A DNA stretch of 64,000 bases, from IMG/VR virus record IMGVR_UViG_3300027129_000004, positions 1-64,000 of that record; one strand, 5' to 3'. The notes beneath the pieces were generated by a model, which did not search any database, had not been told where the DNA came from, and worked only from the letters and a program-made list of their open reading frames with translations. Numbering within the stretch: position 1 is the first letter of the stretch; each line of letters starts with the position of its first letter. The stretch is from a virus. Made by a program: the position numbers and the translations under genes. Of the stretch, positions 355 through 62,700 are shown one piece after another.

Positions 355-427
355 TCCAGATGACCGAGCAAGCGAACGGGCCCGACTGTTAATCGGAGAT
401 TGGTAGGGGCAGTACCTACATCTGGAG
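355..427 (+). tRNA. tRNA-Asn(GTT) with atypical T- and D-loops
   Basis: The acceptor stem TCCAGAT/ATCTGGA is perfect. The anticodon loop CTGTTAA gives GTT (388-390) on a CCGA/TCGG stem, with the outermost C-A pair mismatched. The T-stem GTAGG/CCTAC is perfect but its loop is GGCAGTA instead of TTCRANY. The D-stem is 3 bp and its loop AGCAAGCGAA lacks the usual GG. The identical odd T-loop occurs in the adjacent tmRNA. No CCA is encoded. Confidence 0.75.
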
Positions 428-450: not shown

Positions 451-525
451 CGTGGGGAAGTGTAGTGGTTGCACAGAAGTCTCATAAGCTTCAGGTTGGT
501 GGTTCGATTCCACCCCCCGCCACCA
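451..525 (+). tRNA. tRNA with CAT anticodon (Met or Ile2)
   Basis: Anticodon CAT at 483-485 in loop CTCATAA on stem GAAGT/GCTTC. T-arm GGTGG/TTCGATT/CCACC is canonical and CCA (523-525) is encoded. The acceptor pairs from position 2 onward, but C1 faces C72, an initiator-like unpaired end. The anticodon stem lacks the three G-C pairs of an initiator. Elongator Met and lysidine-modified Ile2 cannot be told apart from sequence alone. Confidence 0.85.
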
Positions 526-529
526 AAAT

Positions 530-601
530 GGGGGATTCGTATAACGGTTATTACTCTGGATTTGCAATTCAGAAATAAGGATTCGATTTCCTTATCCTCC
601 A
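530..601 (+). tRNA. tRNA-Cys(GCA)
   Basis: Acceptor GGGGGAT/ATCCTCC with one G-T pair, anticodon loop TTTGCAA giving GCA at 564-566, and canonical T-arm AAGGA/TTCGATT/TCCTT. It sits only 4 bases after the CAT tRNA, so the two are probably processed from one transcript. A second GCA tRNA lies near 32,050. Confidence 0.88.
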
Positions 602-642
602 CTTAGTGCTAACTGTCATTTCATAGAACATTATATTGAAAC

Positions 643-676
643 TTGACTCATAAAACTCTTTATGGTACTATATAAT
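643..676 (+). promoter_or_regulatory. Sigma70-like promoter for the tmRNA
   Basis: TTGACT (643-648) is followed by TACTAT at 17-bp spacing and by an overlapping TATAAT at 671-676. The transcript would start just before the tmRNA acceptor piece. Confidence 0.5.
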
Positions 677-680
677 AAGT

Positions 681-898
681 TCAAGAGGATGTGACCTCTA
701 TATTCCAGGACATCGGGGCAGTACCGATTATCTCCACTTCTTGGGGGTAAATTAGAATCGACTGGGGTTTATGTTGTATCTGTTGACGGGACAAGAAAAC
801 AAACGCAAACAAAATTGTTGCTTTCTCTCGTCAAACCGCATTGGTTTGAACTAAACGAGTGAGGGGGTTATAAGTTTCCTTCTTACCCAAAACTTACA
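681..898 (+). ncRNA. ssrA: Circularly permuted (two-piece) tmRNA
   Basis: The acceptor piece comes first: T-stem ATCGG/CCGAT (712-728) with loop GGCAGTA, then acceptor strand TATCTCC (729-735) and A736. After only 6 bases the 5' piece starts with GGGGGTA (743-749), which pairs with TATCTCC over 7 bp including G-T pairs. AGAATCGAC resembles the tmRNA D-region. A GCA resume codon at 805 opens the frame ANKIVAFSRQTALV-stop (TGA 847-849), close to alpha-cyanobacterial tags. The tag end lies in a hairpin (CAAACC/GGTTTG inside CTCGT/ACGAG). An H-type pseudoknot follows: GGGT 865-868 with ACCC 885-888, and TAAGTTT 871-877 with AAACTTA 890-896. The ends are approximate. A permuted order is known from cyanobacterial tmRNAs. 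Confidence 0.85.
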
Positions 899-923
899 AG
901 GAGGTGTAATGCCTCCTATTTTT
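899..923 (+). terminator. Rho-independent terminator after the tmRNA
   Basis: Perfect 6-bp stem AGGAGG/CCTCCT with a 7-base loop, followed by ATTTTTAT. Confidence 0.75.
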
Positions 924-1501: not shown

Positions 1502-2053
1502 ATGACCGAAAACTACCCCGAGTTCGTTCCTTTTGCTAAAATCCCCCGTCTTCATAAGGAATGTATTGTCACTGAAAAGATTGACGGCACTAATGGTATT
1601 ATCTACATCACTGACGATGGAGATATGTTTATCGGAAGTCGCAATCGTTGGTTGAGTGCAGAGTCTGACAATTTTGGGTTTCATCGTTGGGCATCTGAAA
1701 ATAAAGATGAACTGATGAAACTTGGTGCTGGTCGTCATCACGGAGAATGGTGGGGTAGTGGTATTCAACGAGGTTATAATCTACCCAAAGGTGAGAAAAG
1801 GTTCTCCTTGTTTAATGTGAGTATCTGGAATTATGAAAACAAACCAGAGTGTTGTTATGTTGTTCCTACTCTTTATACTGGAGAGTTTAGCACTAATGAA
1901 CTTGATGATGCGATGGATAAACTTTGGGATTATGGTTCTGTTGCCTCTCCAGGGTTTATGAATCCTGAAGGAATAATTTTATTTCATAGTTCGGCAAATC
2001 ATTACTTCAAGGCACCATTTTATAAAAATCATAAGGGGGTAAGGACACTCTGA
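1502..2053 (+). CDS. RNA ligase family protein (nucleotidyltransferase)
   Basis: 183 residues with the covalent nucleotidyltransferase motifs in order: motif I EKIDGTNG (Lys26 as predicted AMP-accepting residue), GSRNRW near 45, motif III-like GEWWGSG near 84, motif IV EGIILF near 155, and motif V FKAPF near 167. This matches the RNA_ligase (Rnl2-like) superfamily, which seals RNA nicks by adenylation. It is shorter than T4 Rnl2 and lacks an evident C-terminal domain. It sits just downstream of the tRNA/tmRNA cluster, so tRNA or tmRNA repair is an attractive but unproven role. Confidence 0.85.
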   Translation: MTENYPEFVPFAKIPRLHKECIVTEKIDGTNGIIYITDDGDMFIGSRNRWLSAESDNFGFHRWASENKDELMKLGAGRHHGEWWGSGIQRGYNLPKGEKRFSLFNVSIWNYENKPECCYVVPTLYTGEFSTNELDDAMDKLWDYGSVASPGFMNPEGIILFHSSANHYFKAPFYKNHKGVRTL

Positions 2054-35899: not shown

Positions 35900-35984
35900 T
35901 TCTTACGGGCATCAAAGGTCCAAACTTTGAATAAGACCCACACCCTCTATGCCTCTTAACAATGCACAAACCAGAGGGTCTCTT

Positions 35985-59700: not shown

Positions 59701-62700
59701 CTTCTATTGGTGTTGGAACTCACAAATTTTCATATCCATCAATTGAGATTGGTGTTGAATCAATTAGTGGAATTGCTACCACAATTGTAGAACCATCCTT
59801 AGATCCGATTGTTCTTGGTTCTTTTGATAATATTTTTATAGAAAATACTGGAAGCAATTATGGAACACCAGATATTCTAAACTTCCATAGAAAACCATTT
59901 GTTTCTGTAAGAAAACAAACATCAGAAGCAATATTAAAACCAGTCGTTTCTAATGGTTTGATTGTTGATGTCCAAATATTAAATGCAGGAAATGGATATG
60001 CAAATGACATTGACATTGTTGTTACTAGTGAAAGTGGAAAATATGCTGAATTATATCCAACTGTGGTAAATGGAAAAATAACTCAAGTTTTAGTTATCAA
60101 TTCTGGAATAAACTATGATGAAACAAATACATCAATAACCATAAAGAAAAGAGGTTCTGGTGCTAGATTTGAAGGTAATATTTTCGAATGGCAAATAAAT
60201 CAAATTGAAAAAAATAAGTCAATCATTAACTCTGAAGATGAAGGTGTTATTATACCAAGTGATGTTGACAAATTCGGATTACAATTTATAAATTATTATC
60301 CTTCCAAAAAATTAAGAAAAAATTTAAATAATTTTATCGATATAGAAGGAAATGAAAATCCACCAGCAGCAACAACAAATCCATATCAAATTTTAGGATG
60401 GGCTTACGACGGAAATCCTATTTTTGGTCCTTATGGTAAAGTAAATGGGCAAATCAAAAGATTAAAATCAAGCTATAATAAAATTAGTGAGTCGGAAAAA
60501 AATCAATTAATTGATTTAAATGTAAGACCAAATTTTGATGCTGGATTTTTTATTGATGATTTTTATTTTGATAGATCAGTATCTGAGGGAGATTTGGACG
60601 AGTGTAATGGAATGTTTATAAACACTCTTGATTTTCCAAATATTAATTATGGATATTTCCTCAGTCTTGATGATGATGGAAATCCACAATATCCATATTT
60701 AATTGGTTCAAAGTTTAAAGATTTACCAATAGAAGAAAATTTTGAACCATCTTTCAACCAGGAATTGGATTTTAATAATTTGGATATAGTGAGAAATACT
60801 GGTCCATATTATTTGAATTCTACATATGCATCCTATGGTTTAATTAATAAAATAGAATCAAAATACAAACAAGAATTTGTAGTAAAACAAATACGGTCTT
60901 CTGGTATAAATTCTGTTTCAATTTATGATCCAGGTCAAGATTATAAATCAGGTGATAATATTGTTTTTGATAATTCAACTTCTGGTGGAACTGGATTATC
61001 TGCTGTAATTTCAAGAATTGAAGGAAAAGAAGTTTCGAATATTCAAATTGGAGTATCTACTTTTTCTGGTGTAACTTTTATCACAAAGGGAACAAGAATA
61101 AAAGGAATTACAGAAACACCCCACAATTTGATTACAAATGATGAAATTTTAGTCACTTCCATTTCTTCTAGTCCGTATAATTATATTCAAGGATTTAAAA
61201 AAGTATTAATAAATCAAAAAAGTGTTAGTTTAATAAATGATATTCCAAACCAATCAACTACTGGTGTAACAACTTATATTACTGTAAATGATATTTCTGG
61301 ATTTGAAGTCGATAACTTAATTGGAATTGATACAGAAACTTTAAGAGTTATTGATATTTCATCTTCGGAATCAAAATTATTTGTAAATCGATATGAAAAT
61401 TATACTGGAATTCATACTGCAGGAATTGCATCCGTAGTATTACTTCCAAATACATTTACATTCGATGCTCCCCAATATAATGATACTATCATAGAAAATA
61501 AAACCACTTATTTCAATCCCAGCAATACAATAGGGATAGGAACAATTGGAACAAATTATTATAAATTGGTTGGTGTTAAAACTGATTTTGGAACATTTAA
61601 TGCTGGAATAACCAGTTATATTGGAATTAATACTACTGCATTGGAAATTGGTGATTATGTTTCGGGAACTAATGTTTCTGCTGGGACAACTGTTATAAGT
61701 GTTGGAATTGGAAGTATTCAAATTTCACCAAGTCATACTCTTGGTGGAGGAATTTCCACTTCTTTAATTACCTTTAAAAGATCAGTATATGATAAATTTG
61801 TTCCATCTCGTTCAATTTATATACCAAATCACAAATATTACACAGGCCAATCTTTAACTTATAATGTTGGGTTGGGCGGAAATGGTATTGTAGTATCAAA
61901 TACTGGCACAGGTTCTACATTTAGATTAAATCAAAATCAAACAGTCTATGCAGTCAATTTGGGAAATGACTATGTTGGATTATCTACCTTAGGTTTTACA
62001 ACAACTACAGGAATTGGATCAACATCAAATTCATTGTATTTTAGTTCATCAACAAATATTGGATTAGCACATTCATTAGCAACACAATATTCAAAACTTA
62101 CTGGAACTTTTGAAAATTATTCCGTAACTGTTTCTACAGCACAAACACATGGATTACAAACAGACGATAAAATAAAATTCAATGTATTTCCAAGTTTTTC
62201 AAATACAATAAAATTAAGATACGATACTGCACTCAGAAAAATCACAACAGATAAAATTGATTTTGATGCTTCTTCAGTTGGTGTAAATACACAAACAAAT
62301 GAGATTACTATAACTGGCAATAAATTAAAAACTGGTGATAAAGTTGTTTATTATACTAATGGAAATACCTCCATTGGTGGATTGACTAATAATAATACTT
62401 ATTACATCTTAAAAGAAAACCCAGACAAAATAAAATTATCAAATTATCTTTACGACACAGCAGTCGGAACTTGTATTAGTTTCACAAGTGTTGGTGTTTC
62501 CAATCATAGCATTGCTCTTATTAATCCACCAATCAGTCTCACTAAAGGTGATATATTGACTTTTGACTTAAGTGATGCTTCTGATATGGATTTGAGGTTA
62601 TACAAAGATCCAAATTTTGCTAAAGAAATTGAAAACTTTAAATATATCAGCAATAACACAAGAGTATTAAATACTCAAACGACTGATGTTCCAAATGAAC

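Follow-up and report, generated by a model that had tools for sequence, protein, structure and literature searches.

A cyanophage two-piece tmRNA with an altered tag ending and a jointly changed elbow

A permuted, two-piece tmRNA gene encoded by a cyanophage combines two changes, one at the end of its tag, where Leu-Val stands in place of Ala-Ala, and one in the elbow of its tRNA-like domain, where several bases are altered together; the components of this combination recur in many aquatic phages. Phage tmRNAs were already known; the altered tag end and the coupled elbow are what the present analysis adds, and a function is proposed from them. We consider it fairly probable that the gene gives rise to a working tmRNA that is matured by the host and frees stalled ribosomes, and that its tag and its elbow were changed independently of each other.

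The tmRNA locus and its neighbors

The DNA analyzed (the window, 64,000 nt) comes from an IMG/VR virus record 88 kb long. That record encodes a baseplate wedge protein of the T4-like type, and its DNA similarity is to Synechococcus T4-like phages; together these identify the source virus, at the sequence level, as a cyanophage of the T4 kind. The original prediction for this locus, a phage-encoded permuted tmRNA, was borne out by a covariance-model search, in which the region scored above gathering both for RF01851 (cyano_tmRNA; E = 3e-21, gathering 70; Table 1) and for RF04321 (tmRNA_permuted; positions 687-849, 68.2 bits, E = 5e-11, gathering 47). Reading of the sequence showed the permuted order, the piece that holds the T-arm and 3' acceptor strand preceding the 5' piece, and agreed with the predicted anatomy of a 6-base gap, a 7-bp acceptor helix, a GCA resume codon, a pseudoknot, and a terminator. 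The pair G3.U70, which is the identity pair for alanine, was present in 81/81 phage and 85/85 host tmRNAs and had not been demanded by the rules used to extract them. A promoter-like site upstream of the tmRNA was no better than chance.

Table 1. Features of the tmRNA locus and adjacent genes, numbered from the first nucleotide of the window.
Feature	Position	Strand	Details	Basis
tRNA-Asn(GTT)	355-427	+	T-loop GGCAGTA; D-loop AG without GG	
tRNA-Met(CAT)	451-525	+	canonical T-loop	sequence reading, ARAGORN
tRNA-Ala(TGC)	530-602	+		ARAGORN
Permuted (two-piece) tmRNA gene	662-915	+	complete match, model 1-288 in full	RF01851, 84.9 bits
T-arm	712-728	+	stem ATCGG/CCGAT; loop GGCAGTA (717-723), not TTCRANN	sequence reading
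Acceptor 3' strand	729-736	+	TATCTCC 729-735; discriminator A73 at 736; CCA unencoded	
Spacer	737-742	+	CTTCTT, 6 bases; removal expected from the permuted tmRNA class	
Acceptor 5' strand	743-749	+	GGGGGTA; 7-bp helix; G3 pairs with U70	
D-loop region	750-762	+	A18 G19 (754-755) replacing the usual GG, then conserved TCGAC	
Tag frame	805-849	+	resume codon GCA at 805; stop TGA 847-849; ANKIVAFSRQTALV	
H-type pseudoknot	859-896	+	9 + 7 bp; GTGAGGGGG/CCTTCTTAC and TAAGTTT/AAACTTA	
Intrinsic-terminator-like hairpin	899-917	+	followed by T run	
RNA ligase gene	1502-2053	+	neighbor downstream of the tRNA/tmRNA cluster	PF09414, 48.2 bits

The tRNA-Asn upstream of the tmRNA was missed by ARAGORN and by Rfam at gathering. 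The RNA ligase encoded downstream could mend cleaved tRNAs or the tmRNA, and the product of positions 2098-2580 has repeats of the leucine-rich-repeat-variant/HEAT type (PF01816). Homing endonucleases of the HNH and GIY-YIG/NUMOD3 kinds are encoded at several places in the window. Farther along, an abiF RNA (RF03085, 48.8 bits; 35943-35979) lies immediately upstream of a tRNA-Arg, an order that is annotated in phage S-CREM1 (L002, 3642-3678) and was also seen in L436 (4668-4704). The abiF RNA is linked to abortive-infection genes, and a phage copy could serve as a counter-defence decoy.

A coupled change in the elbow of phage tmRNAs and tRNAs

RNase P, modification enzymes, the L1 stalk of the ribosome, and gene finders all make use of the tRNA T-loop, which is regarded as almost invariant. 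A canonical elbow joins a T-loop of the form TTCRANN to a D-loop GG; the window tmRNA instead has GGCAGTA and AG, and belongs to an alternative form in which position 55 is G and position 18 is A, positions 54 and 58 are G and G or T and A, and C56 and G19 are kept. Neither the alternative T-loop nor the altered D-loop had been part of the original prediction, nor had the tRNA-Asn or the domain swapping described below. The T-loop together with its flanking GG/CC (GGGGCAGTACC) occurs twice in the window, against an expectation of zero, once in the tmRNA and once in the tRNA-Asn. With G at positions 54 and 55, the window T-loop offers no uridine for the usual modifications m5U54 and Psi55; a review of the elbow describes Psi55 as conserved universally and as pairing with G18 (PMC4810234).

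Tags and elbows were extracted with our own pattern rules, and T-loops of the form N-G-C-A-N-T-N were found in a tmRNA context in at least 120 viral stretches. In the loci collected, T-loop and D-loop varied in step almost wherever the latter was readable: across 148 distinct elbows, U55 occurred with G18 in 55 and G55 with A18 in 90, with two exceptions, one of them perhaps a parsing error; positions 54/58 were T-A in 73, G-G in 73, and G-A in one. Fisher's test for the coupling of positions 18 and 55 gave P = 3e-38, a value that overstates independence because the sequences are related, and C56 and G19 were fixed by the extraction, so that their conservation is no evidence. The stems differ among the elbow groups, indicating that the loop was not simply copied along with its stem. 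The coupling was seen in two cyanophage types (that of the window and that of L007, L027, and L032) and also in phage tmRNAs of the alphaproteobacterial type. A restriction of the alternative loop to phages was considered and rejected, since TGCAATT with AG is present in a cellular tmRNA of the standard, one-piece form in three of 386 genomes from the cyanobacterial phylum. In these three genomes (L308-L310) the tag is AKNNVIEADFSRAYALAA.

The same elbow was found in phage tRNAs, where 50 distinct alternative-loop sequences comprised Pro (22), Asn (16), Val (6), Met (4), Arg (1), and Ile (1); those for Pro and Asn came from targeted scans of 64 and 100 viral stretches, and the counts therefore show no isotype preference. 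Among the loci collected, 47 of the 50 alternative tRNAs had AG in the D-loop and 766 of 769 canonical phage tRNAs had GG; because AG was accepted anywhere in an 8-base D-loop, its presence is weaker evidence than in the tmRNAs, and more weight lies on the lack of GG. Acceptor stems within the tRNA-Asn set vary by compensated pairs, the scanner having demanded six of the seven pairs. In 117 cyanobacterial genomes, the pattern for the alternative tRNA-Asn matched once (G042); this match had no tRNA around it and looks like chance.

Several individual tRNAs deserve mention. The isolate Microcystis phage Mwe-JY26 carries an unannotated tRNA-Asn with the GGCAGTA loop (L590, ~407-480), and Synechococcus phage B23 has a related tRNA-Asn with T-loop ATCGATA and D-loop GG that is annotated as a pseudogene (L589, 405-477). 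In one cyanophage record (G407, 61900-62400, minus strand; L426), the anticodon loop of a tRNA-Val contains an insert of ~47 bases that includes the hairpin GGGGG-GGCAGTA-CCCTC, i.e., an alternative T-arm. Phage tRNA-Met genes in L445, L572, and L405 have an initiator-like 1-72 mismatch and the T-loop TGCAAAT or TGCAATT.

These loops also bear on annotation. ARAGORN did not find the window tmRNA. It does not miss all alternative tmRNAs, a notion that we discarded after it recovered 82 of 123, and its recovery was 65/72 for canonical phage tmRNAs and 117/118 for cell tmRNA genes. Annotation tools thus miss many phage RNAs with the alternative elbow, and inventories of phage tRNAs and tmRNAs are undercounted. 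In S-SSM7 (L434, 236-454), a "hypothetical protein" (SSSM7_025, T4-LIKE GC 1277) overlies an unannotated permuted tmRNA, as does a "hypothetical protein" in S-CAM3 (L435, 146-286; AOV59188.1); both protein calls are probably spurious. The tmRNAs of S-CRM01 and S-CBWM1 are likewise unannotated.

The window tmRNA and those of L165 and L314 are 100% identical in the tag domain and 69-71% identical in the tRNA-like domain, one elbow being alternative and the other canonical. Likewise, the tag ANKIVKFERTAVAV is shared by L032 and L369, which have both elbow types between them, and in L331 and L383 a third tRNA-like domain, very unlike the others, lies beneath it. Among pairs whose tag domains are at least 90% identical, ~30% of phage pairs had tRNA-like domains below 75% identity, whereas the minimum for host pairs was 94%. 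By these identities, the tRNA-like domain of cyanophages is swapped beneath an unchanged tag domain, and that of host pairs is not. Together with the constant G3.U70, the comparisons indicate that the part recognized by the host has diversified, the charging signal and the tag staying constant. The several alleles found beneath a single tag domain suggest diversifying selection of some kind.

The changed elbow could be an escape from recognition by a host factor, such as a defence nuclease or a modification-dependent control, whose target is the normal T-loop or its modifications, the alternative alleles being maintained among the phages. The two or three tRNA-like-domain alleles found beneath the same tag domain are in keeping with this reading, as are the recurrence of the same elbow in tRNA-Asn, -Pro, -Val, and -Met and the presence of an RNA ligase gene nearby. 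However, we know of no host factor directed at the T-loop, one cellular group carries the TGCAATT form, and the majority of phage tRNAs have a normal loop. An escape of this kind is somewhat unlikely in our estimation; it is compatible with a working, host-matured tmRNA and would supply a reason for the changed elbow.

The tag and its ending

As had been predicted, the window tag is close to that of the host with its end changed, having a host-like core followed by Leu-Val. The tags of alpha-cyanobacterial host tmRNAs ended in Ala-Ala at 118 of 118 loci among the matches listed, as did all 13 distinct host tags among those matches, most of which read ...APVAA. A host tmRNA ending in ALV, the observation held in advance to speak against a phage-specific change, was found in none of at least 118 alpha-cyanobacterial host tags. 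Two host genomes have tags in ...TALVAA, and by sequence the phage tag looks like this host tag minus its final two alanines.

A search of cyanophages, proposed as a check on the altered ending, showed that it recurs widely. Complete cyano-type permuted tmRNAs were found at 98 loci in viral contigs and isolates, and endings other than Ala-Ala occurred at 75 of these. With tags read from the conserved ANK/ANN onward, although some begin further upstream, 31 of the 39 distinct ones had such an ending. The distinct tags concerned ended in LV (13), AV (8), TA (3), TV (2), and AL, CA, SV, VA, or TL (1 each), with V endings occurring on several different tag backbones. Among isolates, the tags end in ...TSLVAAL (S-CRM01), ...VSCA (S-CBWM1), ...ELATA (Sf-FS3), ...QLATA (AG-345-P14), and ...ELVTA (S-SSM7). 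Cyanophage tags that keep Ala-Ala are mostly of one type, ANNIVAFSRSTVAA, which includes those of S-CAM1 and S-CAM3. Outside the cyanophages, the tag of Bacillus phage G, AKLNITNNELQVA, has the non-Ala-Ala end ...ELQVA, and that of mycobacteriophage Bxz1 reportedly ends in ALV.

Nearest-neighbor comparisons of 59 distinct tag ORFs gave 66 synonymous and 37 non-synonymous differences (pN/pS 0.195), a ratio that shows purifying selection on the ORFs. Since, in addition, the final Leu-Val is encoded by eight codon pairs, selection at the level of the peptide keeps the ending, at least in the LV groups.

The Ala-Ala end of an ssrA-type Clp degron is absent from the window tag. From this it had been argued that ClpXP-type proteases, which were said to need the terminal Ala-Ala, might spare the product or redirect it; the need for Ala-Ala was overstated, since in Synechocystis reporters LVA was the strongest degradation tag, AAV weaker, and ASV weakest, so that AAV and ASV still degrade (PMC3446811, review). 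The tag is better taken as a degron that is attenuated or redirected, and most likely the V end weakens or redirects Clp-type degradation of tagged proteins. The same Synechocystis results would also fit a functional tmRNA in which the change at the tag end is neutral, tags ending in V or TA being degraded well enough and drift giving rise to the variety of endings (LV, AV, TV, SV, TL, TA, CA, VA, and AL). However, the codons for Leu-Val vary synonymously while the residues stay constant, Ala-Ala has been lost in none of at least 118 hosts, and V endings stand on several different backbones; neutrality thus seems unlikely to us. The tag change is also, as far as the sequences indicate, unlinked to the elbow change, neither being obligatory, since some cyanophage tags keep Ala-Ala and phage tmRNAs of the alphaproteobacterial type that have the alternative elbow keep Ala-Ala ends.

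Proposed function and relation to known systems

In the mechanism that we propose, the RNase P and RNase Z of the host would excise the phage tmRNA and CCA would be added, after which host AlaRS would charge it via G3.U70. Host SmpB would carry it, no SmpB family match having been found in the 14 phage records examined. The RNA would then free ribosomes that are stalled in the infected cell, and its tag (core ANKIVAFSRQ, end Leu-Val) would direct the weakened or redirected Clp-type degradation discussed above. In the elbow, A18/G55 stands in place of G18/U55 and G54/G58 in place of T54/A58, with G19 and C56 kept; in the three-dimensional form that we would expect, these two outer-face bases would be retained for RNase P and the ribosome and the modified positions lost. 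The reason may be that the RNA no longer depends on host modification, or that it evades a reader of the normal T-loop. Phage tmRNAs can be strongly expressed: among the lytic genes of mycobacteriophage Wildcat, the tmRNA ranks first in expression (PMC7474061). More broadly, and tentatively, phages of aquatic bacteria may possess a second, self-consistent elbow that functions without T-loop modification, is swapped as a cassette in tmRNAs and tRNAs, and evades a host factor, some of these RNAs also bearing sparing or redirecting tags; we regard this wider scheme as possible rather than expected.

Two other readings concern the RNA as a whole. It might act as a decoy that sequesters SmpB or AlaRS and blocks host trans-translation, as has been proposed for the tmRNA of mycobacteriophage DS6A; host SmpB would be needed given that the 14 phage records yielded none, and a DS6A-like RNA inhibits tmRNA on expression (PMC4131195; PMC11915505). 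However, the mRNA-like domain is whole, with tag frame, stop, and pseudoknot, and the tag is under purifying selection, making a decoy improbable. That the gene is a decayed, non-functional host remnant acquired by recombination would agree with the fast divergence of the tRNA-like domain and is highly improbable, given the constant G3.U70, compensated stems, tag pN/pS of 0.195, and coupled loop changes.

The two changes in the phage RNA offer points of entry to experiment. The recurrent loss of Ala-Ala makes the purpose of phage tmRNAs testable, whether rescue, destruction, or rescue without destruction, and a natural, jointly changed elbow in many phage tmRNAs and tRNAs provides a test of the roles of the elbow and its modifications. 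A 2022 survey reports tmRNA in 402 of 18,146 phage genomes, with 53 of 133 distinct structures, counted in isolates, being two-piece and 50 of those 53 coming from aquatic samples (PMC9004378); a 2025 tmRNA database holds 79 unique phage sequences (PMC11915505). Tag endings and the coupled elbow change are untreated in the available text of these two open-access sources, and an earlier description may exist elsewhere.

The window tmRNA resembles the permuted tmRNA of alpha-cyanobacteria in gene order, its two pieces, G3.U70, TCGAC, tag core, and pseudoknot, but differs in its Leu-Val tag end, in GGCAGTA with AG, and in having an exchangeable tRNA-like domain. Like the permuted tmRNA of Melnitz and the pelagimyophages, it is phage-borne, two-piece, and found in marine T4-like phages; theirs, however, is of the alphaproteobacterial type (PMC9004378). 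Bacillus phage G and mycobacteriophages also encode tmRNAs (PMC4131195), and the phage G tag shares the loss of Ala-Ala, although that RNA has the standard one-piece form and a canonical T-loop. DS6A has a tRNA-like domain only, whereas the window tmRNA has a tag and pseudoknot and is thus unlike an inhibitor of that type. With the canonical elbow (G18-Psi55, G19-C56, T54-A58; PMC4810234), the window elbow has G19, C56, and purine 57 in common, while positions 18, 54, 55, and 58 are changed jointly.

Suppressor tRNAs selected in the laboratory by the Steinberg group reportedly have non-standard D/T-loop contacts and show that other combinations can work. In contrast to these, the phage elbow is natural and widespread in phages.
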